This document shows, piece by piece, positions 954-39,472 of a stretch of 64,000 bases of DNA. Position numbers and translations under genes: made by a program. Positions within the stretch are counted from its first letter, which is position 1. Each line of letters starts with the position of its first letter. Source of the DNA: Planctomycetota bacterium (GTDB lineage Bacteria; Planctomycetota; UBA8742; UBA2392); the NCBI GenBank assembly GCA_020425605.1, contig JAGQRH010000015.1, positions 1 through 64,000 on the forward strand, given 5' to 3'. The notes below the pieces were generated by a model that did no database searches, was not told the origin of the DNA, and saw nothing but the letters and a program-made list of their open reading frames with translations.

Positions 954-3203
954 TCATCGCCTCTTTTGCGCTGATCTGTTTGGTTCGTTGCCTCGATCTT
1001 CGCTTGCCTGCAACTCATTGAGCTGTTTGTACCAGTCGCCCCACCAGGGCTCGTAGTTCCTCCAGCGCTCGACGGCCTTTTTGTAGAGGGGCTGACGAAC
1101 CTGGGCCAGGCTGGCGGTGCGCACGTTGCGCTCGGTCTTGTGGAATTCGAGGCAATTGGGGTCCCAGTCCATGCCGACCCAATCGAGCATACGACGGGCC
1201 TGAGTCTCCAGGTCCTCTACCATGGCGGCGTAAGGCACGTGCAGGATGCGCCCGGGCAGCACCTTGTCCCAGTGCGCCATGATGCGCTTGTAATTGCGGA
1301 AGTGGCTCACGATGTGCTCTTTGCGCTCGGCCCAGCGGATCGAGCCGAAGTGGACCTGCCAGCATGAGGTCGCCACGTCGCGCAGGTCGCGCTGCAGGTG
1401 GATGATCTTCGCGTTCGGGAACATCGTCAGGATCCAGCCGATGTTGACGTAGTTCTCGGGCATCTTGTCGACGATACGCCTTGCCTTGCGGTCATAGGCC
1501 TGCAGCTTGTCGAGGTGATCCGCGGCGATGTCGCCGACCGCCTTCTTTGTCGCCTGCGGCACGGCATCCGGCGCGTCACATGTCAGCCCAAGGGCGCCGG
1601 GCAGGGACATGAATGATTCGCGGGCAAGCCGCAACTCATCCGCGCCGAAAATTTCCGGATGACTGGCCAGCACCTGCTCGGACAACGTAGTGCCGGAGCG
1701 CGGCAGCCCAAGGATAAACACCGGCACATCGCTGTCGTTGCCCCAGCCCCTGGTGCGCTCGAAATGCTCGGCTGTGAATACCTGCATGAGCCGGTCGACC
1801 CACTCCGTGTGTTCCTCCGGGTGATAGTCGACCCCTCGTTTTGCACGACTCCGGCTGTTGAGTTGGTTGGCCTCATCCAGGTAGCGCGCGGCCCATTCGT
1901 GTTCGCCCACCGCATCGTTGTTGGCGCCAAGACCGTACAGGATCGAGATTCGCGCGGGCTCACGCAGACGCGGCCCGGCCTGCAAGGCCGTTTCCATCGC
2001 CCCGGCGTCGCTGGCCGGAAGATCCTTGCGCAGGGAATTCGCTAGCTGTTCATACGCCCCACCGACCAGTGGCTCGATGCGCAGCGCAGCCCGGCATGCA
2101 GCCTCCGTGCCCTTGAAGTCGCCGCGCTCAGAGCAGATCTGGGCGAGGCCCATGTGTGCGGCCGGCAATCGTGGGTTCAACTCAAGGGCGCGCCGCAACA
2201 GGCGCTCGGATTCTTCGATCGTGTGTGCTTCGCCGCCCCTGCGCATGTCGGCCGCCAGCCCGATCATCGCCTCCACGCAATCGGCATCAATCTCAAGTGC
2301 ACGGCGGAACCAGGCCGCGGCGTCCTGACGGCGCTCCATGTCCGCAAACGCGCTGGCCAGGTTGCAGATCGTCTTGGTCGAGCGCGGGTCCAGCTTGAGC
2401 GATCGCTCATACCAGCTGATCGCGGCCTGGTACTCGCCCTTCTGCTGCTCAAGCTGGCCGATGTTGTTGTGCGTGATCGCCAGCTGCGGGCTCAGCTTCA
2501 GGGCTTCGTCGTATTGCGCCTGCGCAGCATCAAGCTCACCTGTTTCGCGCAGGGCGTTGCCGTAGTTGTTGCGCGCGGCCGCAAGATTGGGCGCAAGCTT
2601 TACGGCGTTCTGGAGGCGCGTCAGTGCTTCGTCGACGTCGCCGTCTTCCAGCAGCATCTGTCCGAGGTTGCTCAGGAATTCCGGGTTGGCCGGCTCAAGT
2701 TGCACAGCCTTGCGCGCGGCCACCAGTGCGTCTTCATTGCGCTTGGCGGTGCGCAGGATGTTGCCAAGGTTGTTCCAGGCGAGCGCGTTGCGCGGGTCTT
2801 TGTCGACTGTGTAGCGCAGCTCTTTCTCGGCCTCCGCGACTTCACCGTTCGCTGCCAGCGCCAGCGCGAGGTTGTTGCGGCAGGCGTGGTAGTTCGGGTC
2901 AAACTTTAGAGCGACACGACAGTGGGCAATGGCATCGGCGTTGCGCCCGACCACGCGGTAGGCCTCGGCCAGGTTCGAGTGCATGGCCGGCACATCCGGC
3001 CGCATCTGCACGGCGCGAGTGATCATCTGTATGGACTGGGATGGGTTTCCCCGCTGCAATGCCAGCACGCCACGCAGGTGGACGGCATCTACGAATTGGG
3101 GGGCGCTCTCGGGAATCGCGCGATAGCCCTGTTCGGCCTCGGCAAGTCTTCCGGCACGGTGAAGCGCCATGGCTTCCTGAAGTTGCACCGCTGGATCCGC
3201 CAT
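954..3203 (-). CDS. TPR-repeat protein with C-terminal sulfotransferase domain
   Basis: A 749-residue protein. Roughly residues 1-460 are tandem tetratricopeptide repeats, with repeated 'A-x-x-N-x-G/A-x-x-L' helices such as AWNNLGNILR and AARNNYGNAL. The C-terminal ~260 residues form a Sulfotransfer_3-type domain. It opens with PVFILGLPRSGTTLSEQ, the PAPS 5'-phosphosulfate loop, followed by HLQRDLRDVATSCW, a likely 3'-phosphate-binding segment, and ends in the usual W-x-x-Y region. Such fusions transfer sulfate to unknown acceptors, possibly glycans or proteins. The frame is open to 3296, but the ATG at 3203 is preceded by AAAGGTGG at normal spacing, so that start is used. No signal peptide is seen, so it should be cytoplasmic. 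It stands alone and is divergent from the amidase gene. Confidence 0.85.
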   Translation of the reverse strand: MADPAVQLQEAMALHRAGRLAEAEQGYRAIPESAPQFVDAVHLRGVLALQRGNPSQSIQMITRAVQMRPDVPAMHSNLAEAYRVVGRNADAIAHCRVALKFDPNYHACRNNLALALAANGEVAEAEKELRYTVDKDPRNALAWNNLGNILRTAKRNEDALVAARKAVQLEPANPEFLSNLGQMLLEDGDVDEALTRLQNAVKLAPNLAAARNNYGNALRETGELDAAQAQYDEALKLSPQLAITHNNIGQLEQQKGEYQAAISWYERSLKLDPRSTKTICNLASAFADMERRQDAAAWFRRALEIDADCVEAMIGLAADMRRGGEAHTIEESERLLRRALELNPRLPAAHMGLAQICSERGDFKGTEAACRAALRIEPLVGGAYEQLANSLRKDLPASDAGAMETALQAGPRLREPARISILYGLGANNDAVGEHEWAARYLDEANQLNSRSRAKRGVDYHPEEHTEWVDRLMQVFTAEHFERTRGWGNDSDVPVFILGLPRSGTTLSEQVLASHPEIFGADELRLARESFMSLPGALGLTCDAPDAVPQATKKAVGDIAADHLDKLQAYDRKARRIVDKMPENYVNIGWILTMFPNAKIIHLQRDLRDVATSCWQVHFGSIRWAERKEHIVSHFRNYKRIMAHWDKVLPGRILHVPYAAMVEDLETQARRMLDWVGMDWDPNCLEFHKTERNVRTASLAQVRQPLYKKAVERWRNYEPWWGDWYKQLNELQASEDRGNEPNRSAQKRR

Positions 3204-3539
3204 CGAACAATCCACCTTTGGACGCCCAACATACAAGCGAAGACGCCTTGGCGCTTCCGCCAGTTCCCGCCGCGCTGCGCCGGATGAGCTTCCCAAGGAT
3301 TATGGAAGGCGACCACGAGAAGGCTGGACTGGACCACAAACACCCTCCAAGCGGTTCAGCGACTACTACAACCTTGAAGGCAACGGCCGCTGGCCATGCG
3401 TCGCGATTGCACACGCGTTGGGTTTTTCTTGTGGGATTTGATCCTTGTGTCGCCCTAGGCAGTAGTAAAAGCGTGACTATTGCTGGGCGACTCGCGTCAT
3501 CGGCCGGGATCCGATGGCGCCTCGGTGCGGAGATATCCC
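3204..3539. other. Divergent intergenic region
   Basis: This 336-bp gap separates the sulfotransferase and amidase starts and must hold both promoters. Open frames cross it on both strands but look like extensions or shadows of the neighbours. I see no convincing -35/-10 pair. A GGAG about 10 bases before 3540 is the amidase ribosome binding site. Confidence 0.4.
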
Positions 3540-5291
3540 ATGAAGCTGAAGCTCCCGCTTCTTTGTGCTGTCGTTTGTCTGCTTGCGGCGACGCTGCATG
3601 CCCAGCCGGCGAAGCCAACCTGTATCTGGGACCCCTCGCCGAACTACACATCCGGGCGAACGACCACCATTGACGCGATCGTAATCCATACGACCGAGGG
3701 CAGCTATTCGGGCAGCGTGAGCTGGCTCAAGAACCCCTCGGCTGGCGCAAGCGCGCACTACGTCATCAAGGAAGACGGCAGCGAGATCACGCAGCTCGTG
3801 GCCGACTCCGACCGCGCGTGGCACGCGACGTACTACAACAACCGCGCCATCGGCATCGAGTGCGCCGGATACGCAGGACAGGCCAGCACCTGGACGCAGG
3901 GCATCCTGCCCAAACTGTACGACCTAGTGGCCTACCTCTGCTACACCTACAACGTGCAGGTCGTGCACCCGGCGGGCACGGCGACGGTCAGCCCGCAGAC
4001 GAACGATTTCAACGGCGTCGGTCTGGTCGGGCACTATCAGGTCCAGCCCTGGAACCGCACCGACCCGGGCAGCTACTTCGACTGGAATCAGCTCGTCGTC
4101 GAGGTGAACAACCGGCTCGGCGCAGGCAGCAACGACCGAATCGTGGACAACAGTGACGCGGGCTTCAACGTGCTCAGCGGCTCCTGGAGCACCGGCACAT
4201 CCGCGGCCGGGCACTACGGCGCCGACTATCGCTTCGCCGGCAACAGCGCCAGCGTCACCGCCGAGTGCGAGTGGCGCCCAAACCTGCCTGAAGGTGGCGT
4301 CTACGAAGTCCTGCTGTACTACCCGCAGGGCAGCAACCGCGCCGACAACGCGCCGTTCACGGTCTATCACGCAAACGGCAGCAGCGGCACGGCCGTGAAC
4401 CAGCAGGCCAACGGCGGCGGCTGGTACAGCATCGGCAACTACGACTTCTTCACCGGCAACAGCGGCTATCTGCGGCTGACGAACAATTCAAACCCAAGCG
4501 TGGTCATCGCTGACGCGGTGTGGTTCAAGCAGATTTCGTCGGCACCGGTTCCGGCCGCGCCGGGCACACTGACAGCCAACGTTGTGAACAGCACGGACGT
4601 GAGCTTCAGCTGGAACTACTCGGCCTGGGCCGACGGCTACTACGTGGACATTGCAGAGAGCGCGGCCGACCTGGGCGGCAGCACCGGTACGTTCCAGAAC
4701 GCCAACGTCGGGCGCACAAACAGCCACGTGTGGACGGGGCTGACGCCCGGCCAGACGTACTACTGGCGCGTGTACGCCTACAATCAGGCCGGGGGCAACC
4801 ACGGCTACCCGACGCCGACCAGCTTCACCATGGGCAGCGGGACACCGCCCGCCGCGGCAACTGGGCTGACCGCGACAGTACTGGGCGACACTTCGATTCG
4901 ATTCAGCTGGAACGCAAGCGCGGGGGTCGACGGCTACTGGGTGGACATAGCGGAGTCGTCGGCCGATCTGCTGGCAGGCACGTCCGGCGCAACTTTCCAG
5001 AACATGAACGTCGGTTCTACCACGACAACGCTTGATTGGACCGGGCTGACGCCGGGCACTACCTATTTCTGGCGCGTGTTTGCATACAACACGGCGGGCG
5101 GCGCGCACGCATATCCGACACCAACGTCGGTTTCGACAACCGGCGGCAGCAGCAGCGGTGGCACCGGCCCCGGCGGCAGCGGCGGCGGGAACAGCGGCGG
5201 TTGCTCAACGGACGGCGCCGATTCGTGGCTGTGGCTTGCCTTGCTTGGCGCTTTGCCCGCCTGCATTGCGATTCGCCGGAGGCTGGCCTGA
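3540..5291 (+). CDS. Exported N-acetylmuramoyl-L-alanine amidase with golvesin-like and two FN3 domains
   Basis: A 583-residue protein preceded by GGAG. Residues 1-21 are a signal peptide ending LHA. Residues 40-190 are an Amidase_2 (AmpD/T7-lysozyme type) zinc domain. The likely ligands are His50 (IVIHTTEG), His165 and Asp175, and the candidate catalytic Glu is Glu108 (IGIECAG). The His-x9-Asp spacing matches AmpD. Residues 200-325 form a golvesin C-terminal-like beta-sandwich, followed by two FN3-like repeats with the motif GLTPGxTYxWRVxAYN. A Gly/Ser linker then leads to GGCS, a hydrophobic helix and IRRRLA, a likely cell-envelope sorting signal. It should cleave the lactyl-Ala bond of peptidoglycan outside the cytoplasm. 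Its stop overlaps the next gene's ATG by one base (TGATG), implying translational coupling. Confidence 0.85.
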   Translation: MKLKLPLLCAVVCLLAATLHAQPAKPTCIWDPSPNYTSGRTTTIDAIVIHTTEGSYSGSVSWLKNPSAGASAHYVIKEDGSEITQLVADSDRAWHATYYNNRAIGIECAGYAGQASTWTQGILPKLYDLVAYLCYTYNVQVVHPAGTATVSPQTNDFNGVGLVGHYQVQPWNRTDPGSYFDWNQLVVEVNNRLGAGSNDRIVDNSDAGFNVLSGSWSTGTSAAGHYGADYRFAGNSASVTAECEWRPNLPEGGVYEVLLYYPQGSNRADNAPFTVYHANGSSGTAVNQQANGGGWYSIGNYDFFTGNSGYLRLTNNSNPSVVIADAVWFKQISSAPVPAAPGTLTANVVNSTDVSFSWNYSAWADGYYVDIAESAADLGGSTGTFQNANVGRTNSHVWTGLTPGQTYYWRVYAYNQAGGNHGYPTPTSFTMGSGTPPAAATGLTATVLGDTSIRFSWNASAGVDGYWVDIAESSADLLAGTSGATFQNMNVGSTTTTLDWTGLTPGTTYFWRVFAYNTAGGAHAYPTPTSVSTTGGSSSGGTGPGGSGGGNSGGCSTDGADSWLWLALLGALPACIAIRRRLA

Positions 5292-7549
5292 TGAACGTCA
5301 TCCGCGCGCTCGTTCTTGCGCTTCTTGTTTGCCTCTGCGGCGCACTCTCTGCGCAAGTGACGATCGACAACGTCGACTCAGGCTTCAGCGTCACGTTTGG
5401 CTCGTGGACGACCGCCAGCAGCGCCTCGGGCAAGTACGGCAGCGATTACCTTTACAAGGGCGCCGTCGGCTCAAGTGCGAGCTACAGCGGCACCGTCGAG
5501 TGGCGGCCGACGTTGGCGACGGACAGCTACGAAGTCAGCGTCTGGTACTCGTCCGGCAGCAACCGTGCCAACGATGCGCCCTACACCGTCTACGACGCAA
5601 GCGGGCCGACCACCGTTCGGGTCAATCAGCAGACAAACGGCGGGCAATGGGTGAGTCTGGGCACGTTCAACTTCAATGCGGGCACCAGCGGGTACGTTGA
5701 GCTGGCAAACAACGCCCAGGCGGGGCAGGTCGTGATCGCTGATGCGGTGCGCTTCGTGCCCAGCAGCTACGTGCCGCCTGCCGCCGACGAGATGCGCGGG
5801 GTATGGGTCAGCCGCTACGAGTGGCCGAGCACGACACCAAGTACATGGAAGTCAAACATCAACTCGATCGTCGCCAATGCCAAGGCGGGCAACTTCAACA
5901 CGATCGTGCTGCAGATGCGCGGCGACACGACCACACTGTATCCGTCGCCCTATGAGCCGCTCAGCAGCCTGATCACCAACGGCAGCGGCGACGATGCGCT
6001 GGCGTTTGCAATCGCCGCCGCGCACGCGCAGGGCCTGCAGCTGCACTGCTACTTCAACACACACGTCTGCACGAGCGCGTTCGCCAGCGCCAACCCGAGC
6101 TGGCTGATCGCGGACGCAGCCGGCACGCCAATCAGCTCGCCCGTGGATGGCTACTACTGGCTGGCGCCCGGCAACCCGGACGTGCAGGCCTATCTGCGCC
6201 GGCAGATCATGTACATCGTGAACACGTACCCCACGCTTGACGGAATTCACTTTGACCGCATCCGCTGCCCGGAGGCCGTCTACAGCCACGACGCCGTCAG
6301 CGAAGCTCGCCGCACTGGTGGCGCGAACCCCGACAGCCTCGGCTTTGATGACTGGACCGCCGACCAGATCACCCGCTTTCTGCGCGACGTCTACGCCGAG
6401 GTTCACAGCGTGAACCCGACGTTGCAGCTCAGCGCCGCGCCGCTTGGGCTGTACGACGCCAGTGCCTACAGCGGCTATCCCACCGGCTACTACTATGGGC
6501 TGCCGCGCCACCAGGATGCGAAGGCCTGGCTGGCGGCCGGTGCCATCGACTGGATTGCGCCGCAGTGCTACTGGCCCGACACCGGCGGGCTGCCCGACTT
6601 CAGCGACCTTGTGCCCGACTGGCAGGCCGCCGCCAGTGGCCGTCGCGTTTACCCGGGAATGAGCGTCACCAGCGACTCCGATGAGACCGAGACGGTCAAC
6701 GAGATCACGGCTGCGCGCGGCTTCGGCTGCCAGGGCACGATGGTCTGGAGCTACGGTGCCGCCAACAGCCTGAACTTCTGGAGTACACTCAAGGCCGCGG
6801 GCAAGCCGTACGAGCAGCCGGCTGCCGTGCCCGACCTGCCGTGGCTGAGCAGCCCGTCCACGGCGATTGTCCACGGCGTCATCACCGACTTCGGTACCGG
6901 CACTCCGTTGCAGGACGTGCACGTCACGCGCAGCGGAAGCAGCTACACAGCGCTGAGCGCGGCCGACGGTTTCTGGTGCTTCCTGAATCTCGCGCCCGGC
7001 AGCTACACATTCACGGCAGATCTGCCCGGCACCGGTACCGCCGTCATCAGCGTAAACAACCTGGTAGCCGGCGAAGTCCGTACGGTGAACATCGCGATCG
7101 CCGCGCCGGGCACGGCCACACGGCTCGAGATTGACGCGTCAACACCGACGCAGGTGCCCGCGGGTGACTCGTTCGGCCTGCTGGTTCACGTGGTGGATGC
7201 CCAGGGCAACCCGGTCACCGCAGGCAGCTACAACCTGAGCGTCTCGCCCGTGGGCGTGACCGGAACGCTGACGGGCGCGACCAGCGGCGTCACAGCGGGC
7301 GGCGACCTGACATTCACGTTCAGCCACGATTCACCGGCGACGGTGACGTTCCTGGTGCTGGAAGGGACGAGCACACTCGCATTCGCCAGCACCAGCGTAA
7401 CGTTCACCGCCACCGATTCCGGTGGCGGTGAACGCAATTCATCGGGCTGCGCCGTCAACGCGACCGGCGCCTGGCCACTGTGGGCTCTGCTCGCGCTAGC
7501 TGCGGTCCGTCTGCCGCTGATCGCGCTGCGCAAGCGCGGGCAGGCGTAG
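5291..7549 (+). CDS. Exported GHL10/DigH-like glycoside hydrolase with golvesin-like domain
   Basis: A 752-residue protein starting MNVIRALVLALLVCLCGAL, a signal peptide. Residues ~22-155 are a golvesin-like domain closely resembling that of the upstream amidase. Residues ~165-470 are a GHL10 (YngK/DigH) TIM barrel starting EMRGVWVSRYEWPS, with the characteristic DGIHFDRIRCP segment. A carboxypeptidase-regulatory-like beta domain follows (~510-590, GVITDFGTGTPL), then an Ig/filamin-like region. The C-terminus has SSGCAV, a hydrophobic helix and LRKRGQA. E. coli DigH cuts peptidoglycan strands stripped of peptides, the product of amidases, so the pairing with the amidase makes functional sense (inference). 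The 3' end overlaps the convergent gene by 54 bp. Confidence 0.8.
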   Translation: MNVIRALVLALLVCLCGALSAQVTIDNVDSGFSVTFGSWTTASSASGKYGSDYLYKGAVGSSASYSGTVEWRPTLATDSYEVSVWYSSGSNRANDAPYTVYDASGPTTVRVNQQTNGGQWVSLGTFNFNAGTSGYVELANNAQAGQVVIADAVRFVPSSYVPPAADEMRGVWVSRYEWPSTTPSTWKSNINSIVANAKAGNFNTIVLQMRGDTTTLYPSPYEPLSSLITNGSGDDALAFAIAAAHAQGLQLHCYFNTHVCTSAFASANPSWLIADAAGTPISSPVDGYYWLAPGNPDVQAYLRRQIMYIVNTYPTLDGIHFDRIRCPEAVYSHDAVSEARRTGGANPDSLGFDDWTADQITRFLRDVYAEVHSVNPTLQLSAAPLGLYDASAYSGYPTGYYYGLPRHQDAKAWLAAGAIDWIAPQCYWPDTGGLPDFSDLVPDWQAAASGRRVYPGMSVTSDSDETETVNEITAARGFGCQGTMVWSYGAANSLNFWSTLKAAGKPYEQPAAVPDLPWLSSPSTAIVHGVITDFGTGTPLQDVHVTRSGSSYTALSAADGFWCFLNLAPGSYTFTADLPGTGTAVISVNNLVAGEVRTVNIAIAAPGTATRLEIDASTPTQVPAGDSFGLLVHVVDAQGNPVTAGSYNLSVSPVGVTGTLTGATSGVTAGGDLTFTFSHDSPATVTFLVLEGTSTLAFASTSVTFTATDSGGGERNSSGCAVNATGAWPLWALLALAAVRLPLIALRKRGQA

Positions 7550-8476
7550 CGCCCCGACGGACCGCCTGAACACGCGGCCGCGAATCAATACCAGCAGCGC
7601 AGCCAATACACCCAGTGCCAACAATCCCAGCCCGCCGCCCTCGGAAGTAGAGCATCCGGCAACGTTCGCACTCACGCTGCCCTTGCCCGAGGTGAAGTTA
7701 CGGACCTGGAAACCGGAATGCGCCTCCGCCAGTCCAGACGCGGAAAACACTGCGTTCACGTCCGAGATCGGGCTCTCGGTCAGGTCTACGCCGACTCCGT
7801 AGTAAGCGGCGACCCCGTTGCTCGCGTTTACCGTGACGGTGCCGGTGATCTGCATGTTGGAGCCCGCACCGCCCATCAGCGACATGGTGATCGGCCCGGT
7901 GAATGACGTGTCACGCTGGCCCGAGGCGTCGAGGGCTTCCACGACCGGCTGCACAAGCAGCGTCGGCCCGATCAGTCCACCGACCGGGTGGGTCAGGACA
8001 CGCAGCGCGGGTGCTATGCCGACCTGGCTTGCCAGGCCCGTACCGGAGAACTCGAGAACGTACGGGTCCTCGCCGCCGGTCGTGTCGTTGTTGCTGACCG
8101 TCCAGGTGAAGCTCCAGGGCCCGGGCGCGAGTGGGGTCACGGTAAGTGAGCACTCCTGCCACTCACCGGCGGCCAGAGTAGTCTGCCAGCCGTTGCCGTA
8201 GGGCGGGCCGTGGCAGATGCGGCCGACGATGCAGTTGGACTCCGTGGTCGTAAAATTCGGGTCCAGCGTCAGGGTTGCGTCGCCAAGGTTGACCACGCGA
8301 ACGGTGCGAAAGTACGTGCCCGAGACGTAGGTAGGTCCCCAGCTTGTGTCCGCCACGCCGCTTGGGTGGGGCGTTCCCGCAGGGTACTGGAATTCAATTT
8401 CCGGACCTGACTGGGCCGCAAGCCCGCCGCAGAAAGCGGCCAATACAAATGTCACGTACCACACGAATCGATTCAT
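7496..8476 (-). CDS. Exported choice-of-anchor-D-like surface protein with C-terminal Cys sorting signal
   Basis: 326 residues from the ATG at 8476, which follows GGAG. The signal peptide is MNRFVWYVTFVLAAFCGGLAAQ. The mature N-terminus, SGPEIEFQYPAGTPHPSG, and VRVVNLGDATLTL are typical of choice-of-anchor-D/ASH-type Ig domains of bacterial surface proteins. A second beta domain follows, covering the segment RVLTHPVGGLIGP to VFSASG. The tail has NVAGCSTSEGGG, a hydrophobic helix and RGRVFRR, then about 21 polar residues encoded antisense to the end of the neighbouring gene. That extension is unusual for the set and may reflect loss of an earlier stop. It is a clear relative of the next gene. 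Confidence 0.75.
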   Translation of the reverse strand: MNRFVWYVTFVLAAFCGGLAAQSGPEIEFQYPAGTPHPSGVADTSWGPTYVSGTYFRTVRVVNLGDATLTLDPNFTTTESNCIVGRICHGPPYGNGWQTTLAAGEWQECSLTVTPLAPGPWSFTWTVSNNDTTGGEDPYVLEFSGTGLASQVGIAPALRVLTHPVGGLIGPTLLVQPVVEALDASGQRDTSFTGPITMSLMGGAGSNMQITGTVTVNASNGVAAYYGVGVDLTESPISDVNAVFSASGLAEAHSGFQVRNFTSGKGSVSANVAGCSTSEGGGLGLLALGVLAALLVLIRGRVFRRSVGALRLPALAQRDQRQTDRS

Positions 8477-8561
8477 CTTCAGTCTCCGTTGGATCTCAGT
8501 GAGGTACAATTGTGCCGGTGCGGGGTGGGCGGCTGCTGCTCGCCCACCACGCCTCCTTCGG

Positions 8562-9617
8562 CTACCGCCGGGCGAGACGGCGCCTGCGGGTGAAGATCAG
8601 GATTGCGGTCAGGCCTGCCAGCATCGCAATGCTCAGACTGCTTTGGGCCGCGACACAGCCGCCGCCGCCCCCACCACCGCCACCCGACCCACTGCCAGAT
8701 CCACCGCCGCCGCCGATCGGGCCGCCTGGAACGGTCGTGAAGTTCCAGAGCATGAAGGCCTGCGAGTGCGCATCCGAGTAGCCGCTGGTGCTGAATTTCA
8801 GGTTGTACATCGCGTAGAGGCTGTCGGTCTGGGTGCCTACGAGGTCGGTGAAGCTTGCGAGCCCGTTTACGGCGTTGACCGTCAGCGTGCCCCCAAGCTG
8901 GCCCGTCGCGCCGGCGCCGCCGAACATCGAGACTGTGACCGGCCCGTTGAAAGACGTATCGCGGCTGCCCGATGCATCCAGCGCCTCCACCGTGGGCTGC
9001 TGGTACAGCGCCGTGCTGGTCAGCCCGCCGATGGGTTGCTTCAAGACGCGCAGCGTTGGCGCCACCCCGACATCCGAATCGACGGCGTTGCCGGTGAACG
9101 AAACAACGTAGGGGCTTTCATTGCCCGTGGTGTCGTTGTTTACGAGTTCATAGGTGATGTCCCAGGCGCCCGGCGAATTCGGCTGCCAGCCGATGGAGAA
9201 TTCCTGCCACTCGCCCGGCGCGAGCGTCGTGGTCCAGGCCGGTGGAGAGAGGTGGTACCAGATCGACACACAGTTGGACCACGTCGCGATTGAACCGTGG
9301 TCAGGCATCGTCAGGGGCGCTGTGCCAACGTTCACCACCCGTACCGTGAGGTAGTAGCCTTTGCCCTGCACGATGCTGGGCCCGGTGTTCGAGACTGTGC
9401 TGCCGCTGGCAACGGGGGTGCCGGGCGGGCACTGCAGCTCGATTTCCGGGCTGCCCTGTGCCGCGAGCACACCGCAGAATGTCAGCAGCAAGATCAGGCT
9501 GCCGATGGCCAGCAGCACCTCAACCCACCCGAAGCGCGCCTCCAGCGCCAGCCTCTCTTCTTCAGCCCGGTCCGGGCAGTCGATCCCTCTCCAGCGCGTG
9601 TCTTGAGTCGTCATCAT
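8562..9617 (-). CDS. Exported choice-of-anchor-D-like surface protein, paralogue of 7496-8476
   Basis: About 351 residues. Two ATGs (9617 and 9614) follow GGAGGG; the second has the better spacing. An unusually long, charged N-region of about 33 residues precedes the hydrophobic signal LLAIGSLILLLTFCGVLAAQ. The mature part begins GSPEIELQCPPGTP and has VRVVNVGTAPLTM, matching the neighbouring paralogue, and then the same second domain (RVLKQPIGGL). A Gly-rich linker ends in GGGCVAAQ, a hydrophobic helix and FTRRRRLARR. Both paralogues lie head-to-tail, so they probably arose by tandem duplication. Their function is unknown; a structural or adhesive surface role is plausible. Confidence 0.75.
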   Translation of the reverse strand: MMTTQDTRWRGIDCPDRAEEERLALEARFGWVEVLLAIGSLILLLTFCGVLAAQGSPEIELQCPPGTPVASGSTVSNTGPSIVQGKGYYLTVRVVNVGTAPLTMPDHGSIATWSNCVSIWYHLSPPAWTTTLAPGEWQEFSIGWQPNSPGAWDITYELVNNDTTGNESPYVVSFTGNAVDSDVGVAPTLRVLKQPIGGLTSTALYQQPTVEALDASGSRDTSFNGPVTVSMFGGAGATGQLGGTLTVNAVNGLASFTDLVGTQTDSLYAMYNLKFSTSGYSDAHSQAFMLWNFTTVPGGPIGGGGGSGSGSGGGGGGGGGCVAAQSSLSIAMLAGLTAILIFTRRRRLARR

Positions 9618-9743
9618 CGGTCCCTCCAATCGAATCGTGAGCGGTCTGTGTTTCGTACGGGATAACCGTAGCCCGGCGTTTTCAGAATCACAAAGTGGAA
9701 CAGGGCACTTGCGCCAAATGCTTTTGCAAATTATGAAAACAGC

Positions 9744-11273
9744 ATGAGAGCCGATGCCGGCCTGGTTGAGCGCCTGAAGATCGTGGCGAGCCGCTACACG
9801 CAATCCGAAATCGCGCGTCGCACCGGCACCTGGGTGTCAAACGTCCACCACTATCTCAATGGCACGCGTGTGCCGGCCGACTTCTGCATCGCGCTGGTCG
9901 AAAAGCTCGGCGTCAGCGCGCAGTGGCTGCTGACTGGCGAGGGCGAGCCGTACACGGCCGACGCCGCACCCGACGCGGACCAGTTCGCAGGCGACGTGAA
10001 ACGCCTCTCTCGTTCTCTGGACTCGGCGTCACGTCTGCGCCTCGGCGAGTTGGTATCGAACAAACGCACACGCGCGCTGGCCGAGATTAACGACGCCATC
10101 GACGCCCACGCCGACGCCCAGCGCCGCGTTAGCGCGCAGCTTCGGCAGCCGCTGGTGGATCTGTACCTGTCGTTCACGGCGGCCATCAGTGAGCACGACC
10201 ACGGCAAATCCGAGGCACTAGGTCGAGCAAAGTCGCACTTGCAAAGTGCCCAACTCCTGCAGCGACTGACGGACGACCCGGCGCGCAGGCTGGACGTAAC
10301 ATTCATGGAAATGGAGGTGGCGATCCGTGAATCGCGCTTCGCCGATGCGCTGGTCGAAGCGCGGCGCTGCTTCCTGATCTCCTTTTCGGTATTCGGGCCC
10401 GCCGCCCCGCGCTTCATTGACACTGCTTCCACCTACGCTTCCGGCGCAATGCGCCTGGGCTACATGCGTGAAGCACGTGCTGTACTTGACGCCGGACTCG
10501 CAATGGCGCGCATGGCGGGCAATGACCCCGATTTTTCAGGGTTCGCCGACGTACAGCGGGCGAACATTGCCGTTGAAACCGGGGTAATTGAGGGCATGCA
10601 TGACCTGGCGCGTCGAGGCCTTACGCGGATTGCAAATCGGCCGCTCGTTTCACGGATAAACGCCGCGCCCCTGGTCGCCAACATCGGAATGATGGCCGGC
10701 GTAACCACATTTGAAGAGGCCCTCAAGACTGAGCCTCGCAGCGTCTACCAACTACGTCACCTGTTCCAGTGGGCCGCCTGGCTTGAGGATGCCGGACGCT
10801 TGCGCAAGCTGCTTCGAGTCCGCACGAAAGACATGGCTGGCGTTTCCAGCGTCACTAGCCGCCTCTATGACCATTGGCGCGCTGTAGGCGAGTTTGTTCT
10901 GCGCGCAGCGTGGGATCGCCCTCACGGGCTTTGGCGCGAATATGAAACGTGGGACAAACAGGAGGTCAGTTCGGGCGCGCCCGAGAAGGATGCCGTCCAG
11001 CGCAAGATTCGCTGCACCCAAGTCGCACGCCTGTGCGGCGAAACAAGGCAGGCGGGCAAGCTGCTGCTGGAATCCGACCGCCTCCTGAATGCCATGCCGG
11101 AGGGAATGGAACCGCTCCTGCTCGATCGCGCCACGCATCACCGCAATGCGCTGGTGCTGGGCAACCCGTCGAAGGCCAACTCAAAGATCAAGCAGTTGCG
11201 CGACGACGCGCGACGCTGGTTTTTCGACATGACCGCCGCGGGCTACTCCTGCTTCGCCGGGCTCGGCCTGTGA
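9744..11273 (+). CDS. HTH (CI/Xre-type) regulator with long TPR-like domain
   Basis: 509 residues. Residues ~5-65 form a Cro/CI-type helix-turn-helix: YTQSEIARRTGTWVSNVHHYLNG, then LVEKLGVSAQWLLTGEGEPY, the hallmark ending of CI-like repressor DNA-binding domains. The remaining ~430 residues are helical with TPR-like spacing (for example EARRCFLISFSVFG and REARAVLDAGLAMAR), suggesting a protein- or peptide-responsive regulator. No transmembrane segment is seen. No Shine-Dalgarno stands before the ATG. It is divergent from the paralogue at 8562-9617 and overlaps the beta-helix gene by 31 bp at its 3' end, so it may control the surface island (inference). Confidence 0.75.
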   Translation: MRADAGLVERLKIVASRYTQSEIARRTGTWVSNVHHYLNGTRVPADFCIALVEKLGVSAQWLLTGEGEPYTADAAPDADQFAGDVKRLSRSLDSASRLRLGELVSNKRTRALAEINDAIDAHADAQRRVSAQLRQPLVDLYLSFTAAISEHDHGKSEALGRAKSHLQSAQLLQRLTDDPARRLDVTFMEMEVAIRESRFADALVEARRCFLISFSVFGPAAPRFIDTASTYASGAMRLGYMREARAVLDAGLAMARMAGNDPDFSGFADVQRANIAVETGVIEGMHDLARRGLTRIANRPLVSRINAAPLVANIGMMAGVTTFEEALKTEPRSVYQLRHLFQWAAWLEDAGRLRKLLRVRTKDMAGVSSVTSRLYDHWRAVGEFVLRAAWDRPHGLWREYETWDKQEVSSGAPEKDAVQRKIRCTQVARLCGETRQAGKLLLESDRLLNAMPEGMEPLLLDRATHHRNALVLGNPSKANSKIKQLRDDARRWFFDMTAAGYSCFAGLGL

Positions 11274-14260
11274 CGCATTGCCCTCCACGCGGCGGCTAAC
11301 GCGCCAAGCAGGCCGGTCAGCAGCAGCCAGCACGGGCCCCGGGTGTCTTCCGTGCTGCACCCGCCGGAGCTGCCACCGCCCCCGCCGGAGCTGTTCGGGT
11401 TGGTCTCCGTAATCGTTGGAACGTCCACCGGCAGCGACTCGTTGCCGACTCCGTCTTCTGCCGTCGCAAGGAAGTTGTTGGCCGCTCCCTGCACCAGCGG
11501 CGTGGCCAGATTGAACGCGGCCGCCCCCCCCGTGAGCTGCACGCTGGCCACTACGCTGTCCGTGCCGTTCACGAAGCCGTCGTCATTCAGGTCTGCGTAG
11601 ATGCGTACGAGGCTGTTGGGCTGTGCCGTGCCTGCAATTCCGTAGGCAAGTGCGTCGATCGAGACCGGCCCGGTCGGGTCGGTGATCACCGGCGGCATGA
11701 TTGGCGGCGTCGTGGTCTCTGTGATCGTCGGAACGTCCACGGCGGCCGACGTATTGCCCGCGGCATCCTGCGCGGTGACGACGAAGTTGTTGGTCGTGCT
11801 CTGCGTGAGCGGCGTGTTGATGCTCCAGTTCGTGCCCCCACCCGTTAGTTGCTGCTGTGCGATTACCGCGTCTGCGCCATTGATCAGACCGTCGTTGTTG
11901 AAGTCGATGTAGACGCGCACGCGCGAGTTCGCCTCGGCCGTGCCGCCGATCGCGAAACTGGTGCCGGTCGTGTTGGTGGCGCTTGCCGGCGTCGTGACCA
12001 CCGGTCCGTTTGGTGAGATTGAGTCTTCGGTGATCGTGGGTACATTCACTTCCACTGACTCACCGCTGCTGCCGTCGTCAGCCGTTGCCAGGAAGTTGTT
12101 GTCGGCGTTCTGTACCAGCGTGACCGTGATGCTGAAGGCCGTCCCGCCGCTTACCAGCTGCTGTTGACCGACGACCATGTCGGTGCCGGTGTCAATCGTG
12201 CCGTTGTCGTTCACATCCACGTAGATACGTACCAGCGAGCCGGATGGTGCCCCACCAAGGATCGCGTAACTTGCCGCGTTCACGCTGATCACCGCCGCGG
12301 GGTCAGATACCATCGGCGGTCCGGTCAAAGCGGCCCCGTTGAACTCGTAGGCGCCGATATCCACTCCGCCGCCGTCGTTGCGCGGGAAGCCTGCACCGCG
12401 CTGGTCAAAGCTCAACACCTGAGGGTTGCTGCCCGCATCGCGCGCCGCGCTGGTACTGGCGATGGAATGCGTCTGCGTGGGGCCGCTGTTGTTCTGGAGG
12501 CTTCCCAGCGCGGGGTCGGTACCGATCACGTTGCCCGCACCTGAGGCGGGGCTCACTCCGTTCTCAATGACACAGCTGTCCGCGTTCAGGGTGCCGTCCG
12601 CATCCGGGTTCGAACTGGCAGAGTTGTCAGCGAAGATGGTGCTTTCAGCATTGATGGCCGCACCGCTGCTGTTGTCTTCAAATGCGCCCGCGCCGAGACT
12701 CGGGCTCGCGGCGCCACCCGAGCCACCCGAGCCTCCGCCGCCGCCACTGGCCCCGCCCGCGCCCGGCGTTGCCGTGGTCGCCGTATTCGCCGCGACAGTC
12801 GAATTTGTGATCGAGACACTGGTTCCGCGCACGTAGATCGCGCCGCCGCGGCTCTGCCCGGCGCCGCCACCCAGCCCGCCGTTTCCGCCGACTCCAATGG
12901 CAGTACCGCCTGCCCCGCCGGCGCCGCCATCACCACCAGCAACGACGTTCCCGGACATCGTGCACTGCACAATGGTGACGCTTGCATTCTGGATGAAAAC
13001 GCCTGCACCGTGACCGAAACCGCCGAGGCCTCCCTGGCCGCCGTTTCCGCCGCTCACGCCGGTGCCGCCGTCGCCCCCCGCGCCGCCATCGCCGCCGTCG
13101 GCTGTCGAGTTGCTTAGGGTTGAACTCGAAATGTCGACCGTACCGGCGGCCCCGAAGATCGCGCCGCCTTGCGCACTGCCGCCATTGGCTCCGATCTGGC
13201 CGGCGCGCCCGCTTGTGCCGGTCAGCCCGCCGCCACCTTTTCCGCCGATCCCGCCAGAGCCGCCGGTAGCGACATTCTGGTCAAGGGTGCAGGTGTCGAT
13301 CGTCAGCGTCCCGGAGTTCACATAGAACGCCGCACCCCGCGCGGCGCCGCCGAATGATGCGCTGCCGCCATTTCCTGGGAAGCCTTGTGCAACGCCGCCG
13401 TCGCCGCCATTTCCGCCATTTCCGCCCGATGCGGAGTTCGCGGAAACCTGCACGGAATCGATTGTCAGCTGGCCACCGGCAATGTACGCCGCTCCACCAT
13501 GGCCATTACCGCCGAAGGCGCCGTCTGCGCCATTGCCGGCCGTCACTCCCGACTGGAGCCCGCCGACGCCACCATTGCCGCCACGCCCACCGCCCGCAGC
13601 GTTTGCCGACCAACTGCCGCCGGTGACGTCCACGTTGCCTGCCGCGAGATACATGCCCCCACCAAGAGCATTGCCGCCCGCGCTGCCCGGTGTGCCATTC
13701 GCTGCCGGTGCGCCGGCCGTTCCGTCGACGCCATCCGCGCCGTGGGCTGAGTTGTCGCTGACAACCATGTTCTGCATGGTCAGCGCGCCTGCGCCTTCTT
13801 TCAGGATTGCACCGCCGCGGCCCTCACCTGCGGTGGTGCCGTCGTCAATCGCAACGCCTCCCTGGATGGTGAAGCCGCTGAGAGTAACCGGCGCGTTCAC
13901 GCCATTGTTGAAATGGAACACCCGGTCGACGCCATTGGCGTCGATCACAACTGTCGCGCCGGACGCGGGCTGAATCACAACGGTGCCGGCCGCCTTCACG
14001 AGGTCGAGGTCGCCCGAGACGTTTGCGTTGTCCCCCGCCGCGCCCGTCAGCACATAGGTGCCCGACTGCATTTCGATGATGTAGCTGTTGCTGTCACCGT
14101 TGACCGTCGAAATGGCCGCACGCAACTGCGTTACGTTTGAAACGCCAAGCGTCGTCTGGGCCGACAGCTCTTGCGAAGCCGCCGCAGCCAGCCAGATCGG
14201 GCTGGAAAGCAACAGGCAGCGCTTGATGTTCAGGTCAAGAAACCGGCTACGTTTGGGCAT
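11243..14260 (-). CDS. Large exported beta-helix surface protein with three Ca-loop-like repeats and C-terminal Cys signal
   Basis: 1005 residues, with GGAG before the ATG. An N-terminal signal (~1-35) ends LSAQ. Residues ~40-640 are a parallel beta-helix of the polymorphic-membrane-protein type. It is very rich in Gly, with repeats like GGNGGxGG and 'GGAIY/GGAxF' turns, and ends in DQRGAGFPRNDGGGVDIGAYEF, the usual closing motif. Residues ~650-930 hold three ~90-residue repeats, each with a VRIYVD-N-D/N-G loop (DVNDNGTID, DFNNDGLINGAD, DLNDDGFVNGTD) resembling calcium-binding loops, followed by VPTITE. A Gly/Ser linker, GGCSTED, a hydrophobic helix and WRAMRHR close the protein. A cell-surface adhesin or scaffold is likely. 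It convergently overlaps the HTH-TPR gene. Confidence 0.8.
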   Translation of the reverse strand: MPKRSRFLDLNIKRCLLLSSPIWLAAAASQELSAQTTLGVSNVTQLRAAISTVNGDSNSYIIEMQSGTYVLTGAAGDNANVSGDLDLVKAAGTVVIQPASGATVVIDANGVDRVFHFNNGVNAPVTLSGFTIQGGVAIDDGTTAGEGRGGAILKEGAGALTMQNMVVSDNSAHGADGVDGTAGAPAANGTPGSAGGNALGGGMYLAAGNVDVTGGSWSANAAGGGRGGNGGVGGLQSGVTAGNGADGAFGGNGHGGAAYIAGGQLTIDSVQVSANSASGGNGGNGGDGGVAQGFPGNGGSASFGGAARGAAFYVNSGTLTIDTCTLDQNVATGGSGGIGGKGGGGLTGTSGRAGQIGANGGSAQGGAIFGAAGTVDISSSTLSNSTADGGDGGAGGDGGTGVSGGNGGQGGLGGFGHGAGVFIQNASVTIVQCTMSGNVVAGGDGGAGGAGGTAIGVGGNGGLGGGAGQSRGGAIYVRGTSVSITNSTVAANTATTATPGAGGASGGGGGSGGSGGAASPSLGAGAFEDNSSGAAINAESTIFADNSASSNPDADGTLNADSCVIENGVSPASGAGNVIGTDPALGSLQNNSGPTQTHSIASTSAARDAGSNPQVLSFDQRGAGFPRNDGGGVDIGAYEFNGAALTGPPMVSDPAAVISVNAASYAILGGAPSGSLVRIYVDVNDNGTIDTGTDMVVGQQQLVSGGTAFSITVTLVQNADNNFLATADDGSSGESVEVNVPTITEDSISPNGPVVTTPASATNTTGTSFAIGGTAEANSRVRVYIDFNNDGLINGADAVIAQQQLTGGGTNWSINTPLTQSTTNNFVVTAQDAAGNTSAAVDVPTITETTTPPIMPPVITDPTGPVSIDALAYGIAGTAQPNSLVRIYADLNDDGFVNGTDSVVASVQLTGGAAAFNLATPLVQGAANNFLATAEDGVGNESLPVDVPTITETNPNSSGGGGGSSGGCSTEDTRGPCWLLLTGLLGALAAAWRAMRHRPSPAKQE

Positions 14261-17521: not shown

Positions 17522-18271
17522 GTGACCAAGTATTACACCACGAGCGAAGTAGCCAAGATCTGCAATGTGCACCGAAACACCATCATCGGGGCCATTCGCA
17601 AGGGCTTGCTCAAGATCCACCGCACGCCCGGTGGACACGCACGCGTGGCCCAGGAAGACCTCGATGATTTCTGTCATCGGCGCAGCCTGCCCACGACCTC
17701 TCTGATCTCGCGCAACAACCGCGCGCTGATTCTCGATCCGGATCCCAAGTTCGCAGCCACGCTGGCCAAGGCCCTTCGCGACTACGAGTATCAAGTGGAA
17801 GCCGCCCGGGACTCATTCCAGGCCGGCTACCTGCTGGGCAAATTCCAGCCGAACGTCGTGTTGGTGGAGCTCGAGATCGGCCAAGACATGACCGGCGCCG
17901 GTGTATGCCGCTCGGTCCGCAGCCTACCGAAACTGCGCGACACGGCCGTGATCGGCATCAGCACAGACAGGAGCCAGGAAAAGATCGACGCGCTGCTGGA
18001 CGCGGGCGCGGATGATTTCGTCGCCAAACCGTTCGAAGTAGAGACGCTCGTCGAGCGCATCGTCAACCTGATCGGCCCGGTCATTGTCGGCACCAGTGGC
18101 CGTGCAACCACGGGCAAGATCACCGGCAAACTCACCAAGCGCGTTGAGCCAAAGGACGAGGCCGAGGACGACGACCGCATGACCCGGAAAGCACCTCCCA
18201 AGAACCAGCATCGCACGACACACGGCGGGGTTCTGGCAGGCCCGGAAGAAGAAGACGATTTCGGCACCTAA
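17522..18271 (+). CDS. MerR/excisionase-type HTH fused to a pseudo-receiver domain
   Basis: 249 residues with a GTG start. Residues 1-50 are an excisionase/MerR-like winged helix: YYTTSEVAKICNVHRNTIIGAIRKGLLKIHRTPGGHARV. Residues ~66-185 are a CheY-like receiver. The acidic pocket (Asp72, Asp74), Ser/Thr148-149 and Lys169 (VAKPFE) are kept. The phosphoacceptor position in PNVVLVELEIG is Glu116 instead of Asp. This could mimic phosphorylation or make the domain phosphorylation-independent. The C-terminal ~60 residues are charged and disordered. No histidine kinase is adjacent. The role is probably transcriptional control; the target is unknown. Confidence 0.75.
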   Translation: MTKYYTTSEVAKICNVHRNTIIGAIRKGLLKIHRTPGGHARVAQEDLDDFCHRRSLPTTSLISRNNRALILDPDPKFAATLAKALRDYEYQVEAARDSFQAGYLLGKFQPNVVLVELEIGQDMTGAGVCRSVRSLPKLRDTAVIGISTDRSQEKIDALLDAGADDFVAKPFEVETLVERIVNLIGPVIVGTSGRATTGKITGKLTKRVEPKDEAEDDDRMTRKAPPKNQHRTTHGGVLAGPEEEDDFGT

Positions 18272-36340: not shown

Positions 36341-37783
36341 CTAGAAGATCCACTGCAGCTGCAGGCGGACGATCCACAGGTCATTGTGGTCGGCCCCTGA
36401 GCCACCCAGCGTGCCGCCGCCGAGAACGCGGTTCGGCAGGCTGTTGTAAACACCGTCAAGGCTGCGTGCGCCCGAGCCGTTGTCCGGACGAAGCGCAAGC
36501 TGCTGGCTGACCATCAGGACGTCAAAAGTCAGCTTCAGGTTGTCGCCCTGCAGGTAGTAGTTGACCGACAGACCAATTTCCGTCGCGTCCGGACGCAGCG
36601 CAAAGGAACGCGGGTTGCCCGCAGCGCTGGTGCCGCCCTGCCAGAAGTCTTCAGCGTTCAGCATGCCGAAGCGGATGCCGACGTTGAACTGCTTCGGAAG
36701 GATAAAGTAGCTGACGTCCACGGTGAAGCCGCTGTCTTCGAGGTTGCCGACGCTTGCCTGGTGGTCAGGGCTGAAGCGGTTGGCACCGCGGTTGTGGAAC
36801 TCGCTGTGGCGCCAGAAGTAGGCGACGTCCAGGCTCAGTCCGTGCCAGCGGAAGTGGCCGTCGATGGTGATGGCCCAGGTGTCCTGGTTGGTGCGGAAAC
36901 GACCCGATGCAGTCGCGGTAGCGACAGTGTCGCCGCGGATACCGGCTTCGTCAGCGTCGTAGCCGCTCGTGAACCAGTTGACCGCAAGGCCGATGGCGAA
37001 CAGCACGGCGTCGTACTCGTCTTCGCCGCGCATGTCGTTGAGGCTGTGCTTGATATCGCCCAACGGGTGCGTCTCAAGACGCAGGTTGAGCATCATTTCG
37101 CCGTCAACGAGGTTGCTGAAGGTGTCACTGACCCGTTTGACGTCCGCGTTGCGGAAATCATCGTTGTCCTTGAGCACGCCGTTGAAGATGCCGATCTCGT
37201 ACTTCAGCCAGGTGATGTCTTCACCGACCTTGCCGTCGATGTTGATGCCCTTGGCGAAGTCCTGGTTGAACACTTCGTTGACGTAGCTGCGGTCAACGAA
37301 CTGCTGGCTGCCCGAGCTGGTCATCTCTTCCCAGTTCCAAGCCAGCTTGAACTGGCCGGCCTTGACGTTGATGTACTGCATCACCGCCCAGCGGAACCAT
37401 GCTTCTTCGACGATCTCGTCACCGCCGCCCGCAAAGGTCAGGGTGACCTTGTACTGGAATTCCTTCTGGAAGATGAAGCCGCTGAATGCGGTCTTGACGC
37501 GGCGAATACGGAAGTTGATGAAGTCCCTGCCGTTCTGTCCGTGTCCGCCGTTTGCTACTTCGTTCTGATACGTAAGACGGAACTGCACGCGTGTGGTCAT
37601 GCGCAGCTCAAACCCGTCCGTCGTAAAGACCAGACCCTTCTTGCCTAGCGTTGCGTCAGCAGCACCTTCACCGCCACTGCGGTGAACCGTGCCCAAGTCA
37701 TCGCTGTCTTGCGCCATCGCCGGCGCAGCCAGCAGCCCGATACCGCAAAGCAATATCAGGGCCATAGCCAGAAACTTACTCAT
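36341..37783 (-). CDS. OprO/P-type outer membrane porin, copy 1
   Basis: 480 residues. The ATG at 37783 follows AAGGAG. The signal peptide is MSKFLAMALILLCGIGLLAAPAMAQ. The mature part is a repeated amphipathic beta-strand protein with the features of phosphate-selective porin O/P (VQFRLTYQNEVANGGHGQNG, FQYKVTLTF, GIFNGVL) and ends in LQLQWIF, with the terminal Phe required for BAM-dependent insertion. Phosphate, pyrophosphate or another anion could be the substrate; selectivity cannot be read. It is closest to copy 3 (39473-40915), sharing length, signal peptide and the GKKGLVFTTDGFELR start. Confidence 0.85.
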   Translation of the reverse strand: MSKFLAMALILLCGIGLLAAPAMAQDSDDLGTVHRSGGEGAADATLGKKGLVFTTDGFELRMTTRVQFRLTYQNEVANGGHGQNGRDFINFRIRRVKTAFSGFIFQKEFQYKVTLTFAGGGDEIVEEAWFRWAVMQYINVKAGQFKLAWNWEEMTSSGSQQFVDRSYVNEVFNQDFAKGINIDGKVGEDITWLKYEIGIFNGVLKDNDDFRNADVKRVSDTFSNLVDGEMMLNLRLETHPLGDIKHSLNDMRGEDEYDAVLFAIGLAVNWFTSGYDADEAGIRGDTVATATASGRFRTNQDTWAITIDGHFRWHGLSLDVAYFWRHSEFHNRGANRFSPDHQASVGNLEDSGFTVDVSYFILPKQFNVGIRFGMLNAEDFWQGGTSAAGNPRSFALRPDATEIGLSVNYYLQGDNLKLTFDVLMVSQQLALRPDNGSGARSLDGVYNSLPNRVLGGGTLGGSGADHNDLWIVRLQLQWIF

Positions 37784-37990
37784 GGAATGCTCTCCTTTTC
37801 CGAATCTCACACTGCCTGCCTGCACAGGAATGGGCAGAAGGTATGGAGTGAGTCGGTGGATACGCAACGGAGACTGTGTGGATTGACTAAACTCGAACGG
37901 CGCGGCAACACGTTCCTCAACCGGCCTTAACAAAAAGCGACAAATCGCCGTCTCTTGGGCCGAAGGACGTCTTGACACGTCAAGCTTTTA

Positions 37991-39373
37991 TCAGAAGATC
38001 CACTGCACCTGAAAACGCACGATCCAGAGTACGTCGTGGTCCGCATTTGCACGGCTTTGGCCCAGCAGCCCGTTGCGGGTCTGCGGGTCATTGTAGACGC
38101 CTGAGAGGTACGGCCCGCCCTTGTAGCTGTAGGCCAGTTGCTGATCTATGTAGACGATATCCAGGCTGAATTTCAGACGCTCACCTTGCAGCAGGTAGCT
38201 GGCATTGAAGCCGTATTCCATGGCGTCCGGGCGAATCGCGCGCTGCTGAAGGTCTGTCTGGCTAAGCGCGGCGTCCGCACCCCAGAACTCGTCTGCGTCC
38301 ACGCTGCTGACGCGGAAGGCCACGTTCAGGTCGATCAGGTGGATGTAGTAAGAGGCTTCAAACGTCCAGCCTGAGTCTTCGAGGTCGCCGATTCCCCGTT
38401 TGTTGCTGTTGTCGAATGCGTTGATTCCCTTGTTGTGGAACTGGGTTGTGCGCCAATAGACGGCCACGTCGACGGCAATGCCGTACCAGCGGAAGTGGCC
38501 ATCCAGGGTGACGGCCAGTGTTTCCTGGCTTACACGCGGGCGGCCAGAGCCTGTGGTCGTGGCACCGCTGTCGTTGCGCAGGTCTGCGTTGTCGACTCGG
38601 CTGAACAGCAGATTCGCGCCGGCGCCGAATGCCAGCAGAAGCTGATCATGCTCGTCTTCTGATCTGCGGTCGCCGAGTCCGTAGTCCATGAGCCCGAATG
38701 GATGAGTCTCAACCCGCGTGTTGAACATCAGCTCGTTGTCGATCAGGGTGCTGAATGAGTCACTCGTCAACGCCCCATCCTTGTTGCGGAAGTCATCCTG
38801 GGCGGCCAGGACGCCGTTGTAGATGCCGAACCAGTACTTCACCCAGGGAACGTCCGTACCGAACTGGCCATCAAGCCAGACTCCCTTGCCGTAGTCCTGG
38901 TTGAAGACCTCGTTGGCGTAGCTGCGTTCCTGAAAGTTCAGGTTAAGCGCGTCAACCTGCTCTTCCCAGTTCCAGCGTACGGCGGCCTGGCCGCCGCTGA
39001 CGTTCAGAAACTGGTGGAAGGCCCAACGCAATTGGGCTACTTCAATCATCTCGCTTGCCGGGCGAGCGAAGTTGAGGCGAACCTGGTACTGAAAGGCCGG
39101 GTCGTAGATATGGCCCTGAAACTCGAGCTTGGCTCGGGCGACCCGGAAGTTGCGGAAATCACGCCCGTTGGACCCGCCCCGCCCTCTCTGGCCGACTTCT
39201 TCCTGGATGGTCAGGCGGAACTGCACGTACGTCTGCACGCGAATCGAGAAGCCTTCGGTCTCGAACTTCAGGCTACGTGCTTCAAGAGTTGTAGTCGTAA
39301 CGGTTTGCGCCGAAAGGGCACCCGCAGAAATCAGAACCAGAAAGCAAGCGATGTTCAGCCCGATACGCGTCAT
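37991..39373 (-). CDS. OprO/P-type outer membrane porin, copy 2 (divergent)
   Basis: 460 residues with AGGGGG before the ATG. The signal peptide is MTRIGLNIACFLVLISAGALSAQ. It is collinear with the two flanking porins (VQFRLTIQEEVG, FQYQVRLNF, FGIYNGVL, ending FQVQWIF) but lacks their acidic N-terminal leader segment and differs at many positions. It is therefore an older duplicate sitting between two more similar copies. It ends 208 bp upstream of copy 1, leaving room for a separate copy 1 promoter. Confidence 0.83.
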   Translation of the reverse strand: MTRIGLNIACFLVLISAGALSAQTVTTTTLEARSLKFETEGFSIRVQTYVQFRLTIQEEVGQRGRGGSNGRDFRNFRVARAKLEFQGHIYDPAFQYQVRLNFARPASEMIEVAQLRWAFHQFLNVSGGQAAVRWNWEEQVDALNLNFQERSYANEVFNQDYGKGVWLDGQFGTDVPWVKYWFGIYNGVLAAQDDFRNKDGALTSDSFSTLIDNELMFNTRVETHPFGLMDYGLGDRRSEDEHDQLLLAFGAGANLLFSRVDNADLRNDSGATTTGSGRPRVSQETLAVTLDGHFRWYGIAVDVAVYWRTTQFHNKGINAFDNSNKRGIGDLEDSGWTFEASYYIHLIDLNVAFRVSSVDADEFWGADAALSQTDLQQRAIRPDAMEYGFNASYLLQGERLKFSLDIVYIDQQLAYSYKGGPYLSGVYNDPQTRNGLLGQSRANADHDVLWIVRFQVQWIF

Positions 39374-39451: not shown

Positions 39452-39472
39452 GCTTAGAGACATAAACGATTC

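Follow-up and report, generated by a model that had tools for sequence, protein, structure and literature searches.

The Gly-Cys Tails of Five Neighboring Proteins

Five neighboring genes from a Planctomycetota bacterium encode proteins with a similar Gly-Cys tail, which raises the question of whether the tail is a protein sorting signal and, if so, to which kind it belongs, how far it extends beyond these five genes and which protease could be its partner. The genes are located in a window of 64,000 nucleotides (the window being the whole stretch of DNA that was analyzed) on contig C66 of a 164-contig, 4.24 Mb assembly, which is 86% complete. The five ORFs with Gly-Cys tails of the original prediction were found to be present between positions 3540 and 14260 (see Table 1), and all five follow the plan described for them, namely a Gly/Ser linker, a Cys, a hydrophobic helix and an Arg cluster. 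With regard to the family names proposed for these proteins, those of the amidase, the GHL10 protein and the beta-helix protein (through a choice-of-anchor-Q domain) were upheld, while the pair named choice-of-anchor-D was found to have weak domain matches, at 18–19 bits against a cut-off of 45.

The start of the GHL10 gene overlaps the stop of the amidase gene. The first choice-of-anchor gene is on the strand opposite to the GHL10 gene, and the 3' ends of the two share 54 bases (window positions 7496–7549). As a result tails 2 and 3 lie nearly back to back, and the tail of the first choice-of-anchor-D-like protein extends beyond its own Arg cluster.

Table 1. Positions in the window of the five tail-bearing genes and of their Cys tails.
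Feature	Position	Strand	Remarks
Amidase (N-acetylmuramoyl-L-alanine; Amidase_2, Golvesin_C, fn3)	3540..5291	+	Signal peptide; C-terminus NSGGCSTDGADSWLWLALLGALPACIAIRRRLA
Cys tail 1 (amidase)	5181..5282	+	Profile match, E 1.6e-9
GHL10 glycosyl-hydrolase-like protein with Golvesin_C	5285..7549	+	Signal peptide; C-terminus NSSGCAVNATGAWPLWALLALAAVRLPLIALRKRGQA
Cys tail 2 (GHL10 protein)	7424..7537	+	Profile match, E 1.0e-8
Exported choice-of-anchor-D-like protein, first	7496..8476	-	Weak domain match; C-terminus NVAGCSTSEGGGLGLLALGVLAALLVLIRGRVFRR followed by ~20 residues
Cys tail 3 (first choice-of-anchor-D-like protein)	7574..7666	-	Profile match, E 8.6e-7
Exported choice-of-anchor-D-like protein, second	8562..9617	-	Weak domain match; C-terminus GGGGGCVAAQSSLSIAMLAGLTAILIFTRRRRLARR
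Cys tail 4 (second choice-of-anchor-D-like protein)	8577..8681	-	Profile match, E 1.0e-7
Beta-helix-like protein with choice-of-anchor-Q domain	11243..14260	-	C-terminus SSGGCSTEDTRGPCWLLLTGLLGALAAAWRAMRHR
Cys tail 5 (beta-helix-like protein)	11267..11383	-	Profile match, E 1.2e-11

Number and Composition of Tails in the Source Genome

The MYXO-CTERM model TIGR03901 gave 38 matches in the source genome up to E 10, of which eight were over the cut-off of the model. A tail profile was built from 32 aligned tails (TIGR03901 matches and window tails) and gave 65 matches in the same genome up to E 10, with 52 of these being below E 1e-3. On inspection of 51 tails (E up to 1.1e-4), consisting of the 32 profile seeds and 19 new tails, every one was found to possess a Cys at the same place and to lie at the C-terminus of its reading frame. 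Gly precedes the Cys in 37 tails; the Cys is followed by Ser, Ala, Thr or Val in 50 and, one position further on, by Thr, Ala or Ser in 46. The length past the Cys is 26 to 37 residues in 48 of the 51. The original prediction would have been refuted by a genome with no further proteins of this type; instead, the profile search returned at least 51, which confirms that the observation made on five proteins is real and much larger than first noted.

The tail Cys was the sole invariant column in an alignment of the 51 carriers (long proteins being trimmed to their last 1300 residues, and three being incomplete at the locus edge). No single domain was common to all of these proteins, with Ig-like HYDIN/ASH types, He_PIG, FG-GAP, GSDH and others being identified among them. 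A signal-peptide-like start was detected by a simple rule of our own in 45 of the 48 carriers with a readable start compared with none of 11 cytoplasmic controls; the figure of 45 is approximate, as the rule also fired on an implausible start in window protein 4.

A version of the profile in which the Cys was masked was run against 949,717 bases of DNA from the family of the source organism (51 stretches including the window, not chosen for tails). All 18 matches (domain E up to 0.0033), six of which are profile seeds, carry a Cys at the masked column. The presence of 51 tails in one genome, their occurrence in every genome of the family, their near-absence elsewhere in the phylum (see below) and the recovery of the Cys in 18 of 18 masked matches together indicate that the tails are beyond chance.

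Comparison with Known C-Terminal Signals

The tail belongs to the Cys-type C-terminal sorting signals, the kind known as MYXO-CTERM. All 51 tails show the tripartite plan of this kind, in which a single invariant Cys precedes the helix. Like MYXO-CTERM (TIGR03901, TIGR03382), the planctomycete signal has an Arg-rich end and dozens of carriers per genome. However, the planctomycete motif is mostly G-C-[STAV]-[TAS], compared with the generic GCGC given for MYXO-CTERM in PMC11980579, and the phylum differs from that of the MYXO-CTERM system with its myxosortase MrtX, MrtC or MrtP. Three of the five window proteins gave weak MYXO-CTERM or JDVT-CTERM matches in NCBIfam (7 to 15.5 bits) and the other two gave no match to either. 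The TIGR03901 cut-off of 20 bits was passed by none of the five (best 15.5), and the JDVT-CTERM cut-off of 27 was not reached by the best match, window protein 4 at 14.3 bits.

The original prediction named a second outcome that would count against it, namely that a catalogued CTERM model whose partner is known accounts for all of the tails. This was checked and does not hold, since TIGR03901 is passed by no window protein and, of the 38 matches that it has in the genome, by only eight; on the partner side, none of the six CPBP proteins of the genome passes any Mrt model. The same counts bear on the possibility that the tail is plain MYXO-CTERM with an ordinary myxosortase, the low scores being due to models built on Myxococcota. 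The eight matches over the cut-off, the same Cys, the same plan and a similar length are in keeping with this explanation, but the failure of all five window proteins and of all six CPBP proteins argues against it, and it is regarded as unlikely, if still deserving of consideration. As a matter of naming, the ordinary MYXO-CTERM label is possible for the planctomycete tail.

The tail may also be compared with other catalogued signals. JDVT-CTERM with MrtJ shares the invariant Cys and a CPBP partner, but is described in PMC11980579 as a two-gene pair with a single target, whereas the planctomycete signal has about fifty scattered targets. The PEP-CTERM signal (exosortase) has the same tripartite plan with a PEP motif in place of the Cys, and no PEP motif was found in the 51 tails inspected. 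CGP-CTERM, an archaeal signal associated with MrtA, is likewise a Cys signal, but no Cys-Gly-Pro motif was detected in these 51 tails. GlyGly-CTERM, whose proteins are type II secretion cargo in Vibrio, shares the Gly-rich linker, the helix and the basic end, while the Cys is invariant in the planctomycete tails. In the open-access literature searched, no paper was found whose listing describes planctomycete Cys-type sorting, and the one paper returned for planctomycetes with MYXO-CTERM mentions them in separate places.

The tail could alternatively be an uncut membrane anchor only, made up of a C-terminal helix and stop-transfer Arg residues. A helix and Arg cluster alone would anchor a protein and no processing has been observed; however, a bare anchor does not need a Cys, so that its retention in 51 of 51 tails, and in 18 of 18 matches when masked, is left unexplained, and this explanation is considered improbable. 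A Cys-directed tripartite sorting signal is supported as the best reading of the five tails. As for the Cys-directed anchoring signal originally put forward, its reading as a signal is supported by the 51 tails and their invariant Cys, while we infer the surface location and the Cys chemistry.

Distribution across Planctomycetota

The distribution of the tail was examined in the 16 genomes of the source organism's family (termed family genomes, with the source genome included) and in other genomes of the phylum. Among 60 genomes, source included, the tail profile at E up to 0.1 gave 22 to 65 matches in each of the 16 family genomes and 1 to 11 matches in 17 of the 44 non-family genomes. At E up to 0.01, matches were found in 57 of 392 phylum genomes. 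These comprise 41 non-family genomes with 1 to 4 matches each, four being the maximum among the 376 phylum genomes outside the family, and the 16 family genomes, each of which has between 16 and 19 of the 19 candidates that were scored.

Eighteen non-family matches from seven genomes were inspected individually. Cys tails were identified in all four inspected matches of G016, which is of the same order, and in three of four of G017, which is of the same class. PEP-CTERM tails accounted for matches in G032 (three), G045 (one) and G093 (three of four). The remaining matches of G017 and G093, and all those inspected in G019 and G020, were neither Cys nor PEP-CTERM tails. On the basis of these inspected matches, the Cys tail is the signal of one Planctomycetota family with outliers in the same order and class.

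Candidate Proteases

No candidate protease is encoded in the window, as had been noted originally. The source genome was found to possess six CPBP genes which pass PF02517. None of the six was over the cut-off of a catalogued myxosortase model (MrtX, MrtC, MrtP, MrtZ, MrtJ, MrtS, MrtA, or Mrt_core) in this 86% complete genome; these cut-offs were judged in bits for the six source proteins, and the comparison of the remaining group A, B, and C members with the models was by best E-value. CPBP proteins of the source genome and 20 other genomes were grouped by sequence, and in a tree built from 69 of the 92 proteins each group forms a single clade. Of the 16 family genomes, group A was found in 14, B and C in 15 each, D in 11, and E and F in seven each. 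In one genus, the genes of groups F and A are within ~3 kb of each other (L138/L109 in G010 C7; L139/L108 in G013 C49).

To look for a protease whose distribution tracks the signal had been proposed in the original prediction. A CPBP partner fits this description, with rhombosortase remaining under its cut-off in all 16 family genomes. The protease is most likely that of group B (L032) or group C (L033), with B being preferred only slightly. Both groups track the tail nearly genome for genome and are not separable by the present data, and distribution within the family does not tell the partner from any other family-specific gene.

Group B was detected in all but one of the 16 family genomes and also in G016, the relative from the same order that bears tails. 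Its one gap is G006, from which the adjoining tadA gene is also absent (the best match in a tadA search was a 40% partial one inside a longer frame), suggesting that the locus is probably unassembled. No clear group B member was found in the tail-positive G017, which is 54% complete, and a protein of the tail-negative G018 may be a distant sister of the group according to the tree. A scan of contigs from 84,980 species by short conserved patterns, which distant relatives can escape, returned group B from 14 Planctomycetota MAGs (e.g., HKST-UBA88, ACE_PLA33, and H3_PLA7) and one further contig, together with one weak Pseudomonadota match.

The EExxxR, H and HxxxN motifs were found to be invariant in 14 of 14 group B members. 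The source copy scores 68.9 bits with PF02517 (gathering cut-off 22.4) and 32.7 bits with Mrt_core NF040914, not reaching the cut-off of 100. Its AlphaFold model has a mean pLDDT of 84.5 and aligns with Methanococcus Rce1 (4cad) over 198 residues (Z 13.0, rmsd 3.6) and with SpdC, which has the CPBP fold, at Z 12.7, compared with Z 4.3 for the first non-CPBP row. Foldseek alone gave a weak result (E 0.4). All 14 group B members match MrtS, MrtJ and Mrt_core. The best MrtJ score among the CPBP proteins was that of group B at 42.6 bits, under the cut-off of 75. This likeness to the Mrt models carries no weight as support for group B, as CPBP proteins of the tail-negative G018 and G019 reach MrtJ scores of 44.8 and 39.8.

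The partner may instead be the MroQ-like group C, an option which is held to be possible but less than probable. This group is likewise found in 15 of the 16 family genomes, with G003 as its only gap, has invariant EE, H and HxxxN motifs and has a relative in the tail-bearing G016 (support 87/81). However, the best catalogued family for all 15 of its members is MroQ, which is not a CTERM protease, and its gene adjoins nuo-like genes (nuoJ/K/L-like) and purH, as named from sequence reading. Group B is flanked by tadA and HU genes, also named in this way. Gene neighborhood was rejected as a guide to the protease, with tail genes being rare beside both groups. In the protease flanks examined (HMMER with filters off) no tail gene directly adjoins a CPBP gene, the nearest tail matches being two at about 6–7 kb from group A.

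Group A (L035, L098–L114) is an MrtA-like CPBP group present in three other Planctomycetota besides the 14 family genomes. A role as the partner is very unlikely for group A, which is distantly related to MrtA, the archaeal protease of CGP-CTERM. All 14 of its members match MrtA, and L035 does so at 77 bits over almost its full length, but the cut-off of 200 is not reached and the group does not track the tail. It is absent from the tail-bearing G007, G008 and G016, and three genomes that do have it (G032, G036 and G056) showed no Cys tail. Two motif residues are missing from the group, namely the first Glu in EExxxR and the Asn in HxxxN. Processing by a rhomboid (rhombosortase-like) protease, as in GlyGly-CTERM, is the least probable of these options. 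Rhomboid-like matches do occur in all 16 family genomes and the linker is Gly-rich, but none of the 16 has a match over the rhombosortase cut-off of 84 (best 54.3 bits) and the planctomycete tails keep the Cys, which GlyGly-CTERM is not known to need.

Proposed Mechanism and Secretion

In Myxococcus, the CPBP protease MrtX cuts the MYXO-CTERM of TraA, a cleavage which needs the cysteines of the tail and for which MrtX suffices in E. coli. The lipidation of the MYXO-CTERM Cys has been proposed by the same authors, and the transport of MYXO-CTERM proteins is by type II secretion (all according to PMC11980579). By analogy, it is considered probable that the planctomycete tail is a Cys-type sorting signal of about fifty exported carriers, in which the Cys would receive a lipid and a CPBP (Rce1-like) protease would remove the helix, leaving the carrier lipid-anchored for display on the outer membrane. 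Sec would export the carrier, whose C-terminal helix would keep it in the inner membrane, with the Arg cluster staying in the cytoplasm and the invariant Cys at the outer face of that membrane. After lipidation of the Cys, the glutamic intramembrane protease would cleave distal to it, and the carrier, anchored through its new C-terminus, could reach the outer membrane perhaps via the type II secretion system. For the source organism, the plan shared with MYXO-CTERM and the GspD secretin of all 16 family genomes lead us to infer export by Sec, modification of the Cys, cleavage by a CPBP protease and anchoring at the surface, with myxobacterial precedent as the model for lipidation, cleavage and surface location.

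The GspD-type secretin scores 333 to 362 bits in the 16 family genomes, being over the cut-off of 351 in ten. In the source genome, gspD is located on the same contig as the window, ~23 kb past the window end (L319, 3323–5443), and two more tail genes on this contig have their tails within ~12 kb of it. A linkage between tails and gspD is not claimed. Eleven tails were counted in 305,526 bases near gspD compared with ~4 expected from the average of the source genome (~54 per 4.24 Mb), but these are too uneven across genomes, coming from six of the 16 with five of those six belonging to one genus.

These observations extend Cys-type protein sorting to a Planctomycetota family seen here only as MAGs, name fifty-odd cargo proteins in the source genome and leave two short genes (groups B and C) as candidates for the enzyme. 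It can be suggested tentatively, with somewhat less than even confidence, that the tail is a further class of Cys-type signal, whose own CPBP protease (B or C) arose in one Planctomycetota lineage independently of the myxobacterial enzymes, and that, in the surface display of some fifty proteins, it replaced PEP-CTERM systems like those found in other members of the phylum. Such a system would offer a second lineage in which to find the step that modifies the Cys.

Other Features of the Window

Three tandem similar-looking outer-membrane porin-like genes are located at window positions 36341–41026; two of these match Porin_O_P (49.1 and 38.2 bits) and the third has no Porin_O_P match at E 1e-5. 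A long protein encoded at 954–3296 joins TPR to a sulfotransferase domain, and at 17522–18271 an excisionase-type HTH_17 domain was identified in fusion with a response-regulator receiver.
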